In this document: positions 11,215 through 20,633 of the stretch, one piece after another
Numbering within the stretch: the first letter of the stretch is position 1
How the letters are laid out: each line of letters starts with the position of its first letter
From: Anaerolinea sp.
GTDB lineage: Bacteria > Chloroflexota > Anaerolineae > Anaerolineales > Anaerolineaceae
NCBI GenBank assembly: GCA_029975965.1
Contig: JARKOV010000145.1
Coordinates: 1 to 64,000, forward strand
Reading direction: 5' to 3'
DNA length: 64,000 bases
Translations under genes and position numbers: made by a program
Notes under the pieces: generated by a model
What the model was told of the DNA's origin: nothing
What the model saw: only the letters and a program-made list of their open reading frames with translations
The model's database searches: none

Positions 11215-13491
11215 TCAAGGCCCGGCGGCCGGGCGCAGCACCGCCTGCGGGGCTTCGCGCGGGTTGGTGAACTCAGGAATGGGCAGCGGCTTGTAGCTGG
11301 TACCGGTGTTCAGGCTGCCAACCGGGATGTAGTACAGTTGCGTTGTGCTGCTCGCGCCCAGGGTGATGTCTTGGAAGGCAAACAGCAGGTAGTTGCCGTC
11401 CGGGCTGAATTGCGGGTCGCGGTAACAGCACACCCCTTTGATCGGGTTGATGTTGTTGGTCGCCAGGTAAGTCTCGCGGTTGAACAGGTGCAGATCGCCG
11501 AACCCCTCGTTGCGGGTGATCCCGTTCATGATGAACAGCGCCTCTCCGTCCCAGGTGAAGCCTGCCAGGGTCGGGTTGCGGTTGTATGCGCCAAAGGTAA
11601 AATGCGGTTGGGGGAACTGCACCTTTATGTAGGGATTGTCGACACAGCCATCCACATCGAACACGTTGACGATCTCGCCGCGCCGACCATCTTCCAACAC
11701 GCCCACCGTGATCGCTGCGATGGACTTCCCGTCCTTCGACCAGCGCGCCGAAACGACCGCGTTGCGCTGGTAGGGCGCCATCGCAGGGCAATCGCCCAAG
11801 GCGGCCAAATCCGGGTGCGTGTCGGCAGTCGCTAGGCTGGCCAGGTCGTAGGGCAGCAAGTACAACTGGCGGTCCACGCTGAGCGCCACCCGCGCGCCAT
11901 CCGGCGACACCTCGAACGAATCGACGTAGGTGGCGTTGTTGAAACAGGTGACGGTCGACACCGCGCCCTGCAGGTCGGCGGTCTGGACGCACTTTCCGCT
12001 GATGTAAGATAGACTCTGACCATCCGGGAGCCAGCGCAGATAGGTTTTTGCCGCGCCATCCGTAGTGACCTGCTGCACCTGGCTGCCATCGATGTTGGAC
12101 ACCCAGATGTTGTTCTGGAACAGGTAAGCGATTTTATCGGCCCCGCCTTCGACGATCGCCGGCGGAATTGTGTTGGTGGGGGTCATCTCCGGCGTGTCGG
12201 TGGGCGCCGGCGTGAAGGTGGCTTCCGGCGAAGGCTCCAGCGTGGCAGTCGGCGGTGTCGTCGCGCTGGGCGCCACGGTCTCGGTCGGCAGTGCGGCTTG
12301 CAGCGCGGTGGCGGTGGATACCAACCCGGCCACCCGGTCTGCGGTGGGCGTGGCCTTCGGGCCGAATTGCGCAAAGGCGTAAAATCCCCCGCCCGCAAGA
12401 GCCAGCAGCAGGACGGCGATCACCCCGCCGACAACCCATTTCTTCGCCGAGGGCGGTCGCGATACCTGCGGGAGCGGTTCGCTCGCGGCAGCCCTGGCTT
12501 CGACGGCCGTCGCCTCGCCCACCCTGGCACCCGGCAGGGTGACAGCGGGTTCCACGATCGTCTTGAGCGAGCTTGCTTTTGGGGCTGGTTCGATCACCGT
12601 GGCCTGCGAAGCAGGCGCTTCCACGGCTTGCTCTGCCTCATCGCCCAAAGTGGACAGCGCTTTTTGGAGGGCGGCAGCCATTTCGGCACAGGATTGGAAA
12701 CGATTGGCGCGGTCCTTTTCCAGGGCGCGGTTGACGATGCGCTTCACCTGTTCTGGGACGCCGGGGTGCAACTGGCTCAGATCTGGCACCGGGTCGTGCA
12801 GGTGCATCATCATCAGCGTCATGGCCGAATCTGCCTCGAAGGGCGGTCGCCCGCCGAGCATCTCGAACAGCGTCACCCCGATGGAGTATATATCCGAGCG
12901 GGCATCCGGATGCAACCCCTGGATCTGCTCCGGGGACATGTACAGCGCCGTACCCAGCACGGCGCCGGTGGCGGTATGCTGTTGGGTGTCCATGATGCGG
13001 GCGATGCCAAAGTCCATCAGGATGGCGTTGCCGTTAACGTCCAGCATGACGTTGGCCGGCTTGATATCGCGGTGGATCATTCCTCGCTGGTGGGCGTAGT
13101 CGGCGGCGGTGCAGATTTCGGCGGCGCACTTCAGCACTTCGCGCATGGGCAGGCGCCGACCGGCTTCGTTCATCCGCTTGATGCGGTGCTGCAATGTCTC
13201 GCCTGCCACGTACTCCAGCACCATGTAGTACAGGTCGCCGTCGTGGTTGAAGTCGTAGACCTGGACGATGTTCTGGTGGCGAAGCTGGGCGATGGCGGTC
13301 GCCTCCGAGCCGAAGCGGCGGACGAACTCCTCGTTGTTAGACAGGTGCGGGTGGATCAGCTTGATCGCCACCGTGCGCTTCAAATTCGGATCCCTGGCCT
13401 TGTAAACAGAGGACATGCCGCCCGCCCCGAGCAATTCCTCGATCTGGTAACGCCCTCCCAGAGCCTGCCCTACCCAACGATCCACTGCCAT
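11215..13491 (-). CDS. Transmembrane Ser/Thr protein kinase with extracellular propeller
   Basis: 758 residues from the ATG at 13491, preceded by GGAGAGAG. Residues 14-275 are a PknB-type kinase: glycine loop LGAGGMSSVY, VAIK lysine K44, helix-C glutamate E63, HRD at 140-142 with DIKPAN, and DFG at 160-162, so it should be active. A Pro/Ala-rich linker, one transmembrane helix (about 352-374) and a Thr/Pro-rich stalk follow, then an outer domain (about 450-758) with repeated WD40/TolB-like blades such as LRWLPDGQSLSYIS and PQFSPDGNYLLFAF. The layout (cytosolic kinase, outside propeller) suggests sensing of an extracellular ligand. It is the last gene of an operon with a lipoprotein and a triple-FHA ABC transporter; FHA domains bind phosphothreonine, so that transporter is its likely target. 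Confidence 0.93.
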   Translation of the reverse strand: MAVDRWVGQALGGRYQIEELLGAGGMSSVYKARDPNLKRTVAIKLIHPHLSNNEEFVRRFGSEATAIAQLRHQNIVQVYDFNHDGDLYYMVLEYVAGETLQHRIKRMNEAGRRLPMREVLKCAAEICTAADYAHQRGMIHRDIKPANVMLDVNGNAILMDFGIARIMDTQQHTATGAVLGTALYMSPEQIQGLHPDARSDIYSIGVTLFEMLGGRPPFEADSAMTLMMMHLHDPVPDLSQLHPGVPEQVKRIVNRALEKDRANRFQSCAEMAAALQKALSTLGDEAEQAVEAPASQATVIEPAPKASSLKTIVEPAVTLPGARVGEATAVEARAAASEPLPQVSRPPSAKKWVVGGVIAVLLLALAGGGFYAFAQFGPKATPTADRVAGLVSTATALQAALPTETVAPSATTPPTATLEPSPEATFTPAPTDTPEMTPTNTIPPAIVEGGADKIAYLFQNNIWVSNIDGSQVQQVTTDGAAKTYLRWLPDGQSLSYISGKCVQTADLQGAVSTVTCFNNATYVDSFEVSPDGARVALSVDRQLYLLPYDLASLATADTHPDLAALGDCPAMAPYQRNAVVSARWSKDGKSIAAITVGVLEDGRRGEIVNVFDVDGCVDNPYIKVQFPQPHFTFGAYNRNPTLAGFTWDGEALFIMNGITRNEGFGDLHLFNRETYLATNNINPIKGVCCYRDPQFSPDGNYLLFAFQDITLGASSTTQLYYIPVGSLNTGTSYKPLPIPEFTNPREAPQAVLRPAAGP

Positions 13492-13518
13492 AGACTCTCT
13501 CCGCACCTTGATCTGGTT

Positions 13519-14547
13519 TTATTTTGTATCAATTTGCCACAGCCAGGCATCGCTGAACGTGCAAACCGTCCGGCCCGATTCCGAGGCGGCGATCATCGCT
13601 AAAAAGCCCTCTTCGAAGACGGGCGCGCTCTTCATATAATTCCCCATCGCCACCTGGTACGAATTTTCGCTCTGCTTGACAATATCCTCATATTCCTTGA
13701 GCTGGTCTTCATATGCGCTCACCAGGTCCTGGTTGGTCTTGTCGGCTGGCGGGCGCGGCTTGGGAGGGGCCGGCAGACGGCTCGGCGGCTGGGAGGTGTC
13801 CACTTCGCCGATTTTGACGCCGTTGGTGTAAATCTCGATCAACGCACCCCTCGCCACCACCGCCAGGCGGTTGGTCGTGCCGTTCTCCCACTGGAAGGAC
13901 TGGTCTGCGGACTTGGGGTAAAAATCGTGAATGTTGGCGATCTCCCCTTCCGCCAGGGCGGTGAAAATGACGTGCCCATTGCCGAAGCGGGTCGCGATCA
14001 CCATGTACTGGTTGGGCTTGTTCTTGTCCCCATCCGAGCGGAACATGTAGCCGCAGCCCGAGGAACCGTACTGGGTATCCCAGGTGATATCCGCCGCCAG
14101 CGCGAAATCGGCCGCGGTCACCTCGGGATGGTCGTTGCCGTAGGTGAACTGCTGGTAGCCGGTGATCTCCAGGGTGAGTGGATCGTGCACCCAGCCCACG
14201 TGCCCGCCGCCCGGCTCCAGCCCGTATTGCGGCAGCTCCGCGACGATCGGGGCTGCGACCGTCGCCTCAGCCAGTTGCGCTTCGCTGCGCGTGGAGGCGC
14301 GGGCCGTCTGGGTAGCCTCGATCGCCAGGCTTTTCTCGGTCGCTTCGGCCTGCGCGGTGCCCAGCGTGTTCGTCGAGTTGCCCCCCAGCGCGACTGCCGT
14401 CGCAGTCCCGGCAACCGACGCGCGCAAAGCGGTCAGGGTCGCGTTGGCGTTATCCGCCCCGGCGTCAGGCGAGCACCCCGGCAACACCGCCAGCCACAGC
14501 ATGACTGCCAGCCAGGTGCAGATTTTTCTAGCGGTCACCTTACCCAT
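13519..14547 (-). CDS. Lipoprotein with lectin-like (laminin-G/DUF1080-type) domain
   Basis: 342 residues from the ATG at 14547, with AAGGGG upstream. The N-terminus is a lipoprotein signal ending LPGC, so the mature protein is membrane-anchored outside. An Ala/Thr-rich coiled segment (about 25-85) follows, then a beta-rich region (about 110-245) with FALAADITWDTQYGSSGCGY and NRLAVVARGALIEIYTNG, the pattern of concanavalin-like jelly rolls related to DUF1080. A charged helical region ends the protein; its sequence DLVSAYEDQLKEYEDIVKQS resembles the coiled tail of the neighbouring ABC protein. It lies between that gene and the kinase, with a gap of only 27 bases to the kinase, so a shared complex at the outer face is plausible. 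Ligand is unknown. Confidence 0.8.
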   Translation of the reverse strand: MGKVTARKICTWLAVMLWLAVLPGCSPDAGADNANATLTALRASVAGTATAVALGGNSTNTLGTAQAEATEKSLAIEATQTARASTRSEAQLAEATVAAPIVAELPQYGLEPGGGHVGWVHDPLTLEITGYQQFTYGNDHPEVTAADFALAADITWDTQYGSSGCGYMFRSDGDKNKPNQYMVIATRFGNGHVIFTALAEGEIANIHDFYPKSADQSFQWENGTTNRLAVVARGALIEIYTNGVKIGEVDTSQPPSRLPAPPKPRPPADKTNQDLVSAYEDQLKEYEDIVKQSENSYQVAMGNYMKSAPVFEEGFLAMIAASESGRTVCTFSDAWLWQIDTK

Positions 14548-14619
14548 TTCAGCCACCCCTTTCTGCTCCTGCCCGCGGCATTCGTCAAGCAAGCCCTTTC
14601 GCCAGACACCCGTGCGGGT

Positions 14620-17600
14620 TCAGATAATATCCTTGCGCTTGATCAGGACCAGGATAATGAGGATGAACACGCCGATCAGAATGCCCTGGGCGCCCCACAC
14701 CTCAAACAACCAGGCGCGGAAAGCGACCGGGTCGGATTTGTCCACCCAGCCCCAACCAAACGACTTTTTCACGCTTTCGATCACGCCCTCAGCCCGCTGC
14801 ACGGCGGAATTTCTCGCCGACTCGTATTCCAGCACCTTTTTTTGGTATTCCTCCATCTCGGCCTGGAACACTTTCGCCTGGGCTTCGTACAGCTCCATCT
14901 GGTTCTTGTATTCGCTCTGGATCACCTCAACGTCATCCTGGTAAGCTTGCAGCGCGTTGAGATACTTGACCATCTCCACCTGATCGTTCTGGTCCTCCGG
15001 CGGTTGCGGTGCAGGTGGGATGATCGGCTCAGGCGGCTTGGGACCCAGTTCGGCGGGTTTGGCCACTTCCGGCAGATCGAGCTCCATGACATAGTACTGA
15101 CCCACCCCAGGGAAATTGCAGGATCCCGGGGTGAAGATCGCCACTCCCATGCAGCGGCAGCCCATCGCGGATTTATCCTTGAGCGTCATCCCTTCGCGCA
15201 GCTCTTCGGGCAATTCCCAGCAGGGATCCGCCGCGACGTCCGAGCCAAACCCGACGATGCCAATCAACCCCTCAAACGCCCAGCGAGTGGACGCCACCGC
15301 GCTGATGTTCTCCGGCACGGGCGCAAGCGCGCCGCTGAGCACGATCTGCGGCACGAGCAGCAGGATCATGATCATCGGCGCGGAGGAAGCCGCCGGGGCC
15401 AGGGCTGAGGCGAGCAGACCGCAGACCATGCCCGCCATGGCTGCGAGGACCATGGTGACATACACCAGACCGAACTCGACCGTCCCGCCGGGCATATCGA
15501 AGGCCAGGAAGTGGATGATGGTGTAAGCCGCAGCGTGGTAAAACGCCAGCAGCAGGGCCACCCACACTTTGGAAGCCACGTAGGGGATAATCTTGAGGTT
15601 CACCAGCCGCTCGCGCTTGTAAATATCCTCTTCTTTGACAAACTCGCGCATTTGCGACAGGCCAGCCACCAACAGGCAGTAAATCGTCATCAAGAAGAGG
15701 GTGATGGCGCCGTTGGCGGCGTCGCCCGTGTTGAAGTCGAACGCGGCCTTGCCCATCAGCGGGGCAATGATGAAGTCCAGGGCTGCGACCAGCGGCGCAG
15801 CCAGCAACATCAAAATCAGGCTGGAGCGGTCGCGCACCAGGATGCGCAGATTGCGCGCCGATAGCACCAGGAACTGGTTGAGCCCGGAAGCCTTGCGCCT
15901 GGATTTTACTTTCGGCGCGACCGGCTTGCTGCCCGGTGATGCGCCCGGGCCCGGCTGCAGGGCAGCGGTCGTGACGCCTTTCAACGCCTCGACGATGTAC
16001 GCCTGGTAAGCCGGGCTCTCCGCGTAACGCTTGGCCCATTCCTGCGCAGAACCCTTGGAGGGGTCGTCCAGGATGGCGTAGATCTGGTCGAACTCCATCT
16101 CACGGGCGCGGCGCTCGCGCTCCGAGCGGAACTGGTCGAAATATGCCAGCGCCTGGTCCGGCGGACCAAACCATGCCAGGTATCCCCCTCTGGCGAGGAA
16201 GACCACCTTGTCGGCCAGCATCACGTTTTTGGTGGCGTGCGTGACCATGACGATGGTGCGCCCCTGGTCGGCCAGGCGGCGCATCAGGTGCATGAAAGCG
16301 GTCTCCGTTCCCGGGTCCAGCCCGGAAGTGGGCTCATCCAGGAAGAAGAGACCAGGCGATGTGAGCAGCTCGACGCCGATCGAGACGCGCTTGATCTGCC
16401 CGCCGCTCAGCTTGTTGATCGGGCTGTCCTTGCGATGCAAAAGGTCGAGGTCTTCGAGCACTTCGAGGATGCGCTTGTGGCGCTCCTCTTTGCTGGTGTC
16501 GCGTGGCATGCGCAAGCGGGCGGTGTAATCGAGCGCCTGGTAAACCGTCAGGCCGGTGTGGATGATGTCGCGCTGGGGGACGAAGCCGATGTCATTGCGC
16601 ACCGCATCGAAGTTGCGGTACACGTTGGTGCCGTTGACCAGTACCTGCCCGTGGGTAGCCGGGCGGTACCCGATCATCGCATCGATCAGCGTCGATTTCC
16701 CCCCGCCGCTCTGACCGACCACCACGATCAGCTCGCGCGGCTGGAAGCACAGCGAGATGTTCTGCAAGATGTTCAGGTCTTTGCGCACCCATTTGTTTAG
16801 CCCAACCGCTTCCACCTTCATCCCGCCCGTATCGTCGAAGCGGTCCAGTTGATCTTGCTTCATCACGAAGCGGAAGCGCCCAATGCGCACGCTGTCGTCG
16901 GAGTTCAACCAGGCTTCTTTCTCGATGCGTTGGTCGTTGACGAAGGTGCCGTTGGCGCTGCGCAGATCGCGCACCAGGGTGCGGTGCCCGATGCGCTCCA
17001 ACTGGGCGTGAAAACGCGACACGGTAGGCGAAGCCAGCACCACGTCGTTGGACGGATCGCGCCCGATCTGGATCAGCGTCTTCTCTCCGAAACGGATCGG
17101 CTGCAGCTCGCCCGCCTGGGCGGTGGACACCTGGCTGTACACCAGCGTGACCATCAAACCGGGGTCAAGGCTGCCAATGCGCAAAAGGTCACCGTTTTGC
17201 AGCTTGCGCGCCGCCGAGAGAGGGCGGCCTTCCAGCAGGACAGGGTTGCTGGCTTCGGGCAGCACCACCAACTGGTAACCGGTGGGCGATTTTTCCAGCC
17301 GGGCATGGTAACGGGACACGATGCGCGAGTCGATGACGATGTCGTTGTCTTCCGCGCGCCCGATGCGGATTTCGGGCCTGGTCAGGGGGTAGTCGCGCGG
17401 CGCCTGCCCCGCCACGGTGACGGTCAGCTTCGGCGGGGTGGCCTGCAGCGCGAAGAGCGAGTCGTCGCCCATCACCGTGGCTGCCACCCCGGAGACCACC
17501 TGCTCCATCAGAGTCGCCTGTGGTGAGCCACCAACCCCTTCCACCATCGTGGCGGTGACCTGCGGCAACTGGAAGCGCAAGGCCACCGATTGACCCAGTT

Positions 17601-17868
17601 TGACCTCATCCCCCGATTTGAGCCGGCGTGGGGCAGCGAGGCGCTCGTCATTGACGAAGGTGCCATTGCTGCTGCCCAGATCCTCGAGCACATACCCATC
17701 ACCCTCTTGGGTCAGGCGGGCATGGCGCCGGGAAACCCCCGGCGAGTCGAGCAGGATGTCGCAAGACGGGTCGCGACCGAGGATATACTCACGCCTTTCA
17801 AGTGGGAATTGCTTGTGCCCGGTCGTTCCCTCGACCAGGATGAGCGCAGGCAGGTTGGTAGCGTTCAT
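14620..17868 (-). CDS. Triple-FHA, ABCG-like ATP-binding and membrane protein
   Basis: 1082 residues. Three forkhead-associated domains stand first: about 25-100 (G31-R32, S46, H49, N68-G69), 150-245 (G170-R171, S185, H188; its N-G turn is altered) and 255-335 (G269-R270, S284, H287, N306-G307). An ABC domain of the ABCG/White type follows: Walker A GQSGGGKS at 385-392, LSGGQ at 487-491, Walker B FFLDEP at 508-513 and the switch H544. The ABC2-type membrane region (about 680-880) has five or six helices. An outer region with a long charged coiled coil precedes a last helix and the tail KRKDII. One polypeptide thus holds ATPase and membrane parts, so a homodimer would form a whole transporter. 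FHA domains tie it to the kinase encoded two genes downstream. Substrate and direction are unknown; export is usual for the family. Confidence 0.92.
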   Translation of the reverse strand: MNATNLPALILVEGTTGHKQFPLERREYILGRDPSCDILLDSPGVSRRHARLTQEGDGYVLEDLGSSNGTFVNDERLAAPRRLKSGDEVKLGQSVALRFQLPQVTATMVEGVGGSPQATLMEQVVSGVAATVMGDDSLFALQATPPKLTVTVAGQAPRDYPLTRPEIRIGRAEDNDIVIDSRIVSRYHARLEKSPTGYQLVVLPEASNPVLLEGRPLSAARKLQNGDLLRIGSLDPGLMVTLVYSQVSTAQAGELQPIRFGEKTLIQIGRDPSNDVVLASPTVSRFHAQLERIGHRTLVRDLRSANGTFVNDQRIEKEAWLNSDDSVRIGRFRFVMKQDQLDRFDDTGGMKVEAVGLNKWVRKDLNILQNISLCFQPRELIVVVGQSGGGKSTLIDAMIGYRPATHGQVLVNGTNVYRNFDAVRNDIGFVPQRDIIHTGLTVYQALDYTARLRMPRDTSKEERHKRILEVLEDLDLLHRKDSPINKLSGGQIKRVSIGVELLTSPGLFFLDEPTSGLDPGTETAFMHLMRRLADQGRTIVMVTHATKNVMLADKVVFLARGGYLAWFGPPDQALAYFDQFRSERERRAREMEFDQIYAILDDPSKGSAQEWAKRYAESPAYQAYIVEALKGVTTAALQPGPGASPGSKPVAPKVKSRRKASGLNQFLVLSARNLRILVRDRSSLILMLLAAPLVAALDFIIAPLMGKAAFDFNTGDAANGAITLFLMTIYCLLVAGLSQMREFVKEEDIYKRERLVNLKIIPYVASKVWVALLLAFYHAAAYTIIHFLAFDMPGGTVEFGLVYVTMVLAAMAGMVCGLLASALAPAASSAPMIMILLLVPQIVLSGALAPVPENISAVASTRWAFEGLIGIVGFGSDVAADPCWELPEELREGMTLKDKSAMGCRCMGVAIFTPGSCNFPGVGQYYVMELDLPEVAKPAELGPKPPEPIIPPAPQPPEDQNDQVEMVKYLNALQAYQDDVEVIQSEYKNQMELYEAQAKVFQAEMEEYQKKVLEYESARNSAVQRAEGVIESVKKSFGWGWVDKSDPVAFRAWLFEVWGAQGILIGVFILIILVLIKRKDII

Positions 17869-18260
17869 GGATCGATCCTCTCATCGGGCAACCAGGTGGA
17901 AGGGATGCAACTGGCTTCGAGAATCCTTGGGCAGGTGTTGCTTGGCCCCCCAAATCCCCACACCCCAGAGGTGAGGGGTAAGCGATTAAAACAATCGATT
18001 CATCCAAAATCCACGAGACCTTTTGATGATTATACAATCAATCAAATCGTCAAAATCCGCTTTGCACAAAACTGCAAATAAACTGTACGTTTTCCTATGA
18101 AAATGCGATGGTATTCACCGGTCAGCTATAGAATTGTTTGAAAATTATTATGATAAGATTATGAAATCATCGTTTAAGCCTGCGCAAACTCTCGTCTGAT
18201 ATTGAATGTGCCTGATCCTGCTTTTGATTGATCTCACATTCCAATTGGAAAGCTTGGTTC
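17869..18260. other. Divergent promoter region between FHA-ABC operon and permease-USP gene
   Basis: This 392-base AT-rich gap separates two divergent genes. A TATAAT on the minus strand (18034-18029) with a TTGACG-like element upstream at a short spacing could drive the FHA/ABC/kinase operon with a leader of about 150 bases. On the plus strand TTGTTT and GATAAG-like boxes lie around 18135-18160. No open frame in the gap looks like a gene. The run CACCCCAGAGGTGAGGGGT near 17960 can form a small hairpin of uncertain meaning. Confidence 0.4.
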
Positions 18261-20633
18261 ATGGCCCACGTCTCCCATAAACTCAAAAATTCGTTGGAAG
18301 GCGCTCTTGCCGGCGGGGGTGACCCAGCGACCTCGCCGCTGTATGTGTTCGGCCCGTTTTTGAGGCTGGTTTTCACCGCCGGCCTGGCCGAAATCGCCTT
18401 CGGTGGCGCCGTCTGGCTGGCCGTGCTCACCATCGCCATTGTGTCCGCCATGTACCGCTTGGTGATGCAATGGGTCACCGATGGCAGCGGCGGAAGCGGA
18501 TTGAGCGAGGAGGAGTTTGGCGGTTGGGCCGCCAAAGTAAACGCGGCTATCACGTTCATCGAGTACACCCTGACCTTCCTGGTGAGCATGTCGGCCATGG
18601 TCACCTTCATCGCCGACCGTTTTCCCATTCTGAATGAGCAGGTGCTGAACATTCAGTACCGCACCTTCCTTGCCATCCTCCTCAGCATCCTGACCGGGTG
18701 GCTGGTCAACCGGGGACCCCGCATGGCCGCCCGCGCCTTCGGCCCGGCCACAGCCGGCGTGCTGGCATTGTTGTGGATCATGATCATCGCCACTCTCATC
18801 CAGCATGGCTTTCATCTGCCGGCATTTTCCTTGCAAGCTTTCGTGCCACCCAACCTGCATTACACCATCGGAGGCTATGTGCGCATCCTCGCGGTGATGA
18901 CCGGCATCGAGGTTTTTGCTAACCTGGTCGCCGCTTACAGCGGCACCCCGGAACAACAGAGCCGCAAGGCTTTTGGTAGCCTGGCGATCATCATGGGAAC
19001 CACCGCAGTCACCATGTTGATTGTCGGACCGGCGATTTTCGATCTTTCCGACCCTTCGATCACCACGGTTTCCGTGTTTACCCAGACCATGGACCGGCTC
19101 TTGCCCGCTCCACTGCCGTATTTTGGCACCCTGGTTGGCATCTTCGTGCTCATGTCGGCATCCGCTGCCAGCGCGCAAGGTTTGCAGAACCTGGCATTGG
19201 GGATGAAAGAGCGCAACTACATCCCGCCCGTGTTCGGAGCGCGGAATGCCTATGGGGTGGCGGATAAACCGGTCTGGCTTGAGGTGGGGATTGTCGGCCT
19301 GTGCTTTCTGTTGATCGGCACTCACGAGGAGCTCTACCTGGCCCTCTACGCAGCTGGTGTGTTTGTGCTGCTCAGCCTCACTGGATGGGGCGTGTCTAAA
19401 CGCCTGATGCGCGAAGTGCGTGAGCGTTTCAACTTTCGAACCTACGTTTTGCTGATCGGCACCAGTCTTGCCTCGTTGCTGACGAGCGGTGCGACACTGA
19501 TCATTTTTGAGGAGCGTTTCTTTGAAGGAGCCTGGTTCTATCTGATCCTCGTCCCGCTGCTATACGGAATGTTCACTTACTTCCGTAAGCGCATCGGCGC
19601 GCCTTCGCCCGAAATGGACTACCTGGGACGCATTGACGCTAACCTTCTGGCCGGCTTCGGGTTCAGCCAAGCCGCCCCAATGCTGAACGGCTCATCGAAC
19701 GGCGAGCAGACGATTCCGCGATTGACCTGGACCCCTGAGCCGCATGTTGAAACCAGGTACCGCACGCAACAGGCCAAAATCCGGCATGTTCTCACCTTGC
19801 TGGACGGATCAGCCAACGCCGCGCAGGCCGTGCCGATGGCCCAGTTCATCTGCGAGACTTTCGGTGCGCACTTAACCCTTTTGTCGGCGCGGCGAGACTA
19901 TGGTGAGAATCCCGAAGCGAAAACTGCCATCGAGAACCACCTGGTTGAGGTTTCAGAAAAGATCCACAGCGCCGGCGTTCAGGTCAACTGCGTGATCCGT
20001 TCCGGCTCCCCGGCGCAGGTGACCAGTGAATTGGTCGTCGAAAAAGATGTTGACCTGGTGATCGTGACGACCTATGGGCGATCCGGCGAGAAAAACTGGC
20101 TGCATGAAGGGCTCTCCAGCAAGCTGGTGAACCTGCTCGATATCCCGGTGCTGCTGGTACAGGTATTTGAAAGTGGACCTGCGCAGGCGCCTCACATCGG
20201 CCGGATCCTGGTCGCCCTCGACGGTTCGGCGTTCTCCGAGCAGGCCCTCCCATACGCGCGAACCTTTGCGCGGGCATTCGACAGCGAACTGATGCTCCTG
20301 TGCGTCCCCGCGGTTCCGGAGAGCAACAAATATCGGGCCCCAGCCAGTGTGATCAACTCGATCCGCAGGCAGGCCGAATTGAGCATGCGCAAATTTGCCG
20401 AAACCATCGCCGACACGTTGCGCAAGGACGATTTCGCGGTGCGCAGCATCGTCACAGGCTCTTATCCTGCGCGCACCATTGTGGATGTCGGCAAGCGCGA
20501 AGCGGTTGACCTGATCATGATCACATCGCAAGGTCGCGGCGGGCTGGATTTGCTTTTCATGGGCAGCGTCGCCCAACAGGTGGTCCAGCTCAGCGACAGC
20601 CCGATTTTAATCATCCCCATTCACCACGAGTGA
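18261..20633 (+). CDS. APC/KUP-like permease fused to two universal stress domains
   Basis: 790 residues from the ATG at 18261 (GGAAAG eight bases upstream). Residues 1-450 form about twelve transmembrane helices of the APC superfamily. The N-terminal motif GGDPATSPLYVF (19-30) closely resembles the GD-x-GTSPLYV signature of KUP-type potassium transporters, hence potassium or another cation is as likely a substrate as an amino acid. Two USP domains follow: about 510-640 (start IRHVLTLLDGSANAAQAVPM) and 650-790 (start IGRILVALDGSAFSEQALPY). The second keeps the nucleotide-loop G-x9-GS pattern (GRGGLDLLFMGS); the first is degenerate there. USP domains bind ATP or related nucleotides, including cyclic di-AMP-linked systems in other APC transporters, and probably gate transport. 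It is monocistronic and divergent from the FHA operon. Confidence 0.85.
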   Translation: MAHVSHKLKNSLEGALAGGGDPATSPLYVFGPFLRLVFTAGLAEIAFGGAVWLAVLTIAIVSAMYRLVMQWVTDGSGGSGLSEEEFGGWAAKVNAAITFIEYTLTFLVSMSAMVTFIADRFPILNEQVLNIQYRTFLAILLSILTGWLVNRGPRMAARAFGPATAGVLALLWIMIIATLIQHGFHLPAFSLQAFVPPNLHYTIGGYVRILAVMTGIEVFANLVAAYSGTPEQQSRKAFGSLAIIMGTTAVTMLIVGPAIFDLSDPSITTVSVFTQTMDRLLPAPLPYFGTLVGIFVLMSASAASAQGLQNLALGMKERNYIPPVFGARNAYGVADKPVWLEVGIVGLCFLLIGTHEELYLALYAAGVFVLLSLTGWGVSKRLMREVRERFNFRTYVLLIGTSLASLLTSGATLIIFEERFFEGAWFYLILVPLLYGMFTYFRKRIGAPSPEMDYLGRIDANLLAGFGFSQAAPMLNGSSNGEQTIPRLTWTPEPHVETRYRTQQAKIRHVLTLLDGSANAAQAVPMAQFICETFGAHLTLLSARRDYGENPEAKTAIENHLVEVSEKIHSAGVQVNCVIRSGSPAQVTSELVVEKDVDLVIVTTYGRSGEKNWLHEGLSSKLVNLLDIPVLLVQVFESGPAQAPHIGRILVALDGSAFSEQALPYARTFARAFDSELMLLCVPAVPESNKYRAPASVINSIRRQAELSMRKFAETIADTLRKDDFAVRSIVTGSYPARTIVDVGKREAVDLIMITSQGRGGLDLLFMGSVAQQVVQLSDSPILIIPIHHE

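Follow-up and report, generated by a model that had tools for sequence, protein, structure and literature searches.

What is a transporter with three FHA domains doing beside a lectin-type lipoprotein and a Ser/Thr kinase? The question is raised by a stretch of Anaerolinea sp. DNA (contig JARKOV010000145.1, positions 1 to 64,000; the window, 64,000 nucleotides in all), in which three adjacent genes on the minus strand form one compact unit. Transcription runs from the transporter (14620..17868, 1082 residues) through the lipoprotein (13519..14592) to the kinase (11215..13506), and all coordinates of the unit given below lie on the minus strand. A sequence-only reading of this DNA had proposed such a unit, with a kinase retaining its catalytic residues, three FHA domains on the transporter and outer sensor domains in the form of a propeller on the kinase and a jelly roll on the lipoprotein; these features were all borne out. 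Building on direct observations of gene order, conservation, domain content, homology of a shared module and recurrence of threonine motifs, we consider the unit to be, with a probability of roughly 0.6, a Chloroflexota variant of the PknF-Rv1747-type phospho-regulated ABCG exporter, equipped with a lipoprotein partner that docks on an outer stalk.

The inner half of such a system has a clear precedent. The sequence-only reading had regarded the combination of kinase and FHA-bearing ATP-binding cassette (ABC) transporter as undescribed, yet a pknF-Rv1747 operon of two genes has been published from mycobacteria (PMC3908365, PMC9312465). Rv1747 is an FHA-containing ABCG half-transporter that PknF phosphorylates in vitro (PMC3908365); its FHA part is reported to undergo condensation, a process favoured by PknF and reversed by the phosphatase PstP (reviewed in PMC9312465), and it has been proposed to export phosphatidylinositol mannosides (PMC5549992). 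The two systems have in common N-terminal FHA domains on an ABCG half-transporter, an inter-FHA linker with candidate phospho-threonines and a kinase gene in the operon, the last being suggested in the window by adjacency and shared strand. They differ in that Rv1747 has two FHA domains whereas three are present here, and in that the kinase gene lies upstream there and downstream here. A propeller ectodomain, a lipoprotein gene and an outer stalk with a PP-alpha-like module are additions of the present unit; Rv1747 is not known to have an outer stalk of this type. The inner half most likely works like PknF-Rv1747. The pairing of kinase and exporter is already known, and what looks new is the lipoprotein, together with the segment common to it and the exporter; in the open-licence literature, neither the unit of three genes nor the shared module was found described.

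The domain content of the transporter fits this precedent. FHA1 (residues 28-92, 17593..17787; placed by the best Pfam FHA stretch and signature residues), FHA2 (about residues 167-233, 17170..17370) and FHA3 (about residues 266-332, 16873..17073), the latter two with approximate limits, are fused N-terminally to an ABC ATPase domain (residues 368-515, 16324..16767) in which Walker A, LSGGQ and Walker B are all present. An ABC2 membrane domain of ABCG fold follows (residues 665-853, 15310..15876), so that the order of nucleotide-binding before membrane domain is ABCG-like, and the ABCG fold appeared in 50 of the 50 rows listed by Foldseek for the transporter. FHA3 has a match in the FHA domain solved for Rv1747, 6cah (E 2.6e-9); FHA2 has G170 R171, S185, H188 and N208 and is without NGT. 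Among relatives, the Gly-Arg, Ser, His and Asn positions of all three FHA domains are kept in 19-20 of 20 transporters, and the Arg after Ser is looser (16-19 of 20), with loci L008, L010, L023 and L024 omitted from these and the linker counts. One open reading frame (ORF) of the same transporter family (L024:6534-8825) has no FHA domains in its open frame.

The kinase, which likely starts at the ATG at 13491, consists of a kinase domain (residues 20-271, 12694..13449) with PknB as nearest solved relatives, a juxtamembrane region (about residues 281-355, 12442..12666), a single transmembrane helix (residues 357-375, 12382..12438) and an outer TolB-like propeller (about residues 455-745, 11272..12144; limits approximate) in which five blade motifs were seen. 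Its kinase domain and single transmembrane helix are shared with the PASTA PknB/Stk1 kinases, where PASTA repeats take the place of the propeller; a Pfam scan of the window kinase found no PASTA repeats, and the NF033483 cut-off for PASTA PknB/Stk1 was missed (388 vs 450 bits). A role as a defence system was considered and dropped: PADLOC kinase models match the window kinase, as we would expect for a Hanks kinase; in the transporter a PADLOC match is limited to the ATPase part, and the lipoprotein matches no PADLOC model. The sensor part of the kinase is exchangeable, since ectodomains vary among relatives: a propeller is found in the window, in the second of two L001 kinases and in L003, whereas the first of the L001 pair has a periplasmic-binding-protein domain and L026 a FecR match below cut-off; no recognised ectodomain was found in the remaining six of the ten kinases scanned. 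The two L001 kinases stand in tandem after the lipoprotein (L001:10561-15592), placing differing sensors in one operon.

Candidate targets for the FHA domains are suggested by short threonine motifs, present in the window as TVIE, TIVE and TAVE in the kinase juxtamembrane region and as TMVE, TLME and TVMG in the FHA1-FHA2 linker (about residues 97-148, 17425..17580). A strict motif was defined as T-[VILMFA]-[VILMFY]-[ED], and a relaxed form also permits Gly at the last two positions. In juxtamembrane regions of 14 operon-type kinases (13 beside a lipoprotein plus that of genome G063, with L002 and L019 omitted as cut by their contigs), the strict motif occurs 41 times in 13 of the 14, against 0.93 (standard deviation 0.97) in shuffles, and in the FHA1-FHA2 linkers 17 times in 11 of 20 transporters (shuffles 1.27), figures whose significance the shuffles overstate because the motif was picked after viewing this set, whose members are related, a point that tells against our interpretation. 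The fairer control is provided by further kinases from four of these genomes, which have six strict motifs in 4 of 19 (shuffles 0.57). The relaxed form gives 44 in 13 of 14 operon-type kinases, 7 in 5 of 19 control kinases and 32 in 20 of 20 linkers (shuffles 2.58). Of 51 control matches, 30 were given as loci; five of these are the operon kinases themselves, and the other 25 comprise 19 usable kinases, five without a transmembrane helix within 300 residues and one without a kinase motif. We infer that the FHA domains read the Thr-motif sites.

The outer half of the unit centres on the lipoprotein, which likely starts at the ATG at 14547 and has its lipid-attachment cysteine at Cys40. It has a jelly roll of lectin type with the CBM66 jelly-roll fold as its closest match, and does not reach the PF06439 (3-keto-disaccharide hydrolase) cut-off (17.4 vs 26.8 bits). 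The likeness to CBM66, a fructan-binding module, is one of fold; here the domain is lipoprotein-anchored and interrupted ahead of its last strands by an inserted module (residues 268-323, 13624..13791). A matching module (residues 944-999, 14872..15039) lies in the transporter, in the extracytoplasmic loop preceding the last transmembrane helix. The two align over 53 ungapped columns (hhalign E 5e-15), and comparison of profiles from the full alignments gives E 3.7e-11; blastp finds the module in some transporter-lipoprotein pairs. Furthermore, a lipoprotein profile run against 14 whole genomes matched a large ORF at about profile positions 253-319 in 12 of them (E 7.5e-8 to 3.8e-5), and in those 12 the ORF adjoining the lipoprotein is the transporter. 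A further ORF, of 534 residues (G003:C1:743488), also matches the lipoprotein profile at the module positions.

The sequence-only reading had rightly noticed a segment common to transporter and lipoprotein; its description as a charged coiled coil has been replaced, and the segment is better read as resembling the PP-alpha fold. Of 24 transporter sequences, 23-24 have a proline at each of positions 945, 948, 951, 954 and 957, and tyrosine then predominates at 969, 976 and 987; 34 close lipoproteins have prolines at 270, 276, 279 and 282, then mostly tyrosine at 294, 301 and 312, with the tyrosine spacing of +12, +7 and +11 identical in both. A period-3 proline strand, a loop and a helix with tyrosines in register are thus present, more weakly in some lipoprotein lineages. 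The PP-alpha fold, as in the design PPa-Tyr and the pancreatic polypeptide family, has the period-3 prolines, the loop and the helix tyrosines at +12 and +7 in common with the module, a likeness of sequence; it is here shared by two different membrane-associated proteins. Antigen I/II adhesin stalks also have the PP-alpha fold.

Searches of 177,635 PDB sequences placed PPa-Tyr at the top for both module profiles, and the next ranks held pancreatic polypeptides and further designs of PP-alpha type. In the search with the lipoprotein module PPa-Tyr (E 7.5e-4) was tied with the type III needle protein 2g0u, and more needle proteins from E 0.0028 and an unrelated Gsp1 row at 0.0035 followed; the needle proteins are not read as kin because their matches cover short pieces or the helix part alone, and that helix part by itself is not specific. 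When columns were permuted within the proline and helix blocks, scores of 16.6-22.9 bits fell to means of 0.6-1.8 with a maximum of 10.1, and none of 150 permutations reached the real score in any of six tests (three targets, two profiles), a result showing that register matters rather than that PP-alpha is the best fold, because the targets had been chosen as prior hits. The leading position of PPa-Tyr and the far lower permuted scores are together the grounds for the PP-alpha-like reading. Weak single-sequence Pfam hits to PP-alpha-type families in two sets (Hormone_3 in 4 of 25 and 1 of 24, Strep_SA_rep in 3 of 24, Adhesin_P1_N in one each) carry little weight, because many unrelated families had similar or better E-values.

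Conservation ties the lipoprotein to the transporter more firmly than to the kinase. When a genome collection described as covering 84,980 species was scanned with the lipoprotein alignment, by way of two peptide patterns, 27 loci titled Chloroflexota, Anaerolineae-type or Longilinea were obtained; a protein search counted 464 lipoprotein relatives and 300 transporter-loop relatives, the best 120 of each being listed. The expectation of the sequence-only reading that the genes co-occur in relatives holds for the transporter, whose gene immediately precedes that of the lipoprotein, in the same orientation, in 24 of 27 loci (counting L008, L010 and L025, where a contig end cuts the transporter; L004, L020 and L022 lack it), but less well for the kinase, whose gene follows the lipoprotein immediately in 12 of the 25 loci with enough sequence to tell (the contigs of L006 and L022 end too soon). 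The complete arrangement is found in 11 of 27 loci, plus the separately found G227. On a tree of 23 transporters (L006 and L023 unlabelled; L008 dropped as too short; L004, L020, L022 and L025 not included) kinase adjacency requires three changes, a pattern consistent with, and not proof of, an old three-gene unit with later losses.

In class and phylum samples of genome G001, which overlap, loop profile matches occur in at least 9 of 298 and at least 3 of 301 genomes, respectively, and the full lipoprotein in at least 3 of the 298 of the class sample; these counts are lower bounds because in many genomes only part of the first-look candidates was scored. With all candidates scored, no lipoprotein was found in G027, G286, G273, G243 and G188, whose loops are more distant. 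The unit is split in CP070764.1, where L004 has lipoprotein and kinase without transporter and L009 has transporter and lipoprotein without kinase, the lipoprotein match there ending before the PP-alpha-like module. Two lipoprotein relatives near each other (L020:8554-11651) have no transporter or kinase nearby, and another (L022:6168-7370) has no transporter nearby, its locus ending shortly after the gene. The jelly-roll part was matched without the module in L057 and L089 (genome G193) and L033 (genome G177), the distant matches covering profile positions 88-248 (E 9.4e-13) and 147-248 (E 8.4e-4).

These data bear directly on a simpler account, namely that the locus is an ordinary Rv1747/PknF-type exporter operon in which the lipoprotein rides along without a functional relation and the likeness of the segments is that of Pro/Tyr-rich spacers, convergent or copied, without mutual binding. 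It draws on the known pairing of kinase and FHA-ABCG transporter, on the other Pro/Tyr-rich outer stalks of more distant FHA-ABC transporters that occur without the lipoprotein (L052-L055) and on the G063 transporter, which has the module without a lipoprotein. We nevertheless consider it rather unlikely, as the adjacency in 24 of 27 loci, the ungapped module match and the register-specific match to PP-alpha peptides speak against it. Among the wider relatives, L053-L055 have other long outer segments and no family lipoprotein in the genome, that of L053 being rich in proline and, to the eye, having tyrosines that seem to recur every 11 residues. The distant FHA-ABC transporter of L052 (L052:1-18001) stands amid a fragment of a kinase, several ORFs with FHA domains and a PP2C-phosphatase-like ORF (by eye), possibly a phospho-signalling island without the lipoprotein.

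Several further observations weigh against an exporter with a docking partner. Thirteen of the 25 judgeable loci have no kinase directly downstream, and in seven genomes without a lipoprotein-locus kinase, 26 juxtamembrane regions of high-scoring kinases (30 of 78 kinase matches being given as loci) held eight strict motifs in 6 of 26 and revealed no clear partner acting in trans. Genome G063 has transporter, kinase and module, but its only match in a whole-genome lipoprotein search with all candidates scored was its own transporter module; its kinase, on a contig that ends, is also the one of the 14 without a Thr motif. Of 25 wider lipoproteins, 20 retain the first module tyrosine and 17 the second, and the transporter module profile matches PPa-Tyr with just E 0.02. 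With the full loop profile, a streptococcal-type surface adhesin came first (E 0.044), NUF2 coiled coils next and PPa-Tyr sixth (E 0.19), none of that list being significant. Finally, the ATPase part of the AlphaFold2 transporter model is poor, with many blocks of predicted local distance difference test (pLDDT) <50.

For the phospho-regulated exporter that we favour, the following sequence of events may be envisaged. The kinase would sense an outer signal through its variable ectodomain, to judge from domain content, and would phosphorylate threonines of its own juxtamembrane motifs and of the FHA1-FHA2 linker of the transporter, as the recurrent motifs and the Rv1747 precedent suggest. The FHA domains may then read these phosphothreonines, bringing the kinase to the transporter and clustering or switching half-transporters. 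By analogy with Rv1747, and in view of the lectin-type partner, the ABCG dimer could export some component of the cell envelope, perhaps a glycolipid or glycan. On the outside, the lipoprotein, anchored in the outer leaflet, would use its PP-alpha-like module to dock at the distal tip of the stalk, where the matching module lies, as the shared module and gene adjacency suggest, and its jelly roll could keep hold of the glycan after export or serve as a sensor of the wall. A bolder and rather unlikely reading is that a PP-alpha-like module has turned into a paired docking element in bacteria, copied between exporter stalk and lipoprotein, and that pairing or strand exchange couples the kinase-controlled ABCG motor to the outside lectin, turning phosphorylation inside into movement or capture outside.

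The predicted shape of the stalk invites another explanation. In the AlphaFold2 model the transporter module heads a 78-residue outer helix (residues 963-1040, 14749..14982; block pLDDT 77-90) that stops six residues short of the last helix (residues 1047-1081), which bears the last transmembrane segment. Such a helix, together with a partner lipoprotein carrying a matching module, might suit a mechanotransmitter akin to MacB or FtsEX, in which ATP cycles move the helix and thereby drive the lipoprotein, hardly any cargo being carried, if any. This seems improbable, since the transporter has throughout its listed matches the fold of a family known for transport, and the membrane fold of MacB and FtsEX differs from ABCG. 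An importer receptor, whose jelly roll would bind an outside sugar and pass it to the transporter, could likewise appeal to the CBM66-like lectin fold, the lipoprotein anchor and gene adjacency, but is very improbable given that fused ATPase-membrane architecture is taken as a strong exporter sign, Rv1747 being so read in PMC3908365.

The surroundings of the unit add little. Promoter and terminator scans gave scores near shuffled means, which carry no weight. A divergent neighbour (18228-20633, plus strand) has two universal-stress domains, and its relation to the unit was checked because mycobacterial Rv2623 binds Rv1747. With a positive control run, neither this neighbour nor a glutathione-peroxidase neighbour had relatives at E 1e-5 in ORFs of at least 80 residues in L001-L027 and L051-L057; a functional tie of the unit to the universal-stress neighbour was dropped, since the absence of relatives in these loci makes the adjacency look incidental.

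Kinase-linked FHA-ABC exporters would thus not be restricted to mycobacteria, with, for example, Longilinea arvoryzae (L001) as a non-pathogenic setting for their study, and the lipoprotein partner and long stalk would represent an outer half added to a known system. The recurrent Thr motifs provide a concrete prediction of the targets of the FHA domains. If the paired PP-alpha-like modules do indeed bind each other, they would constitute a simple and testable docking device.

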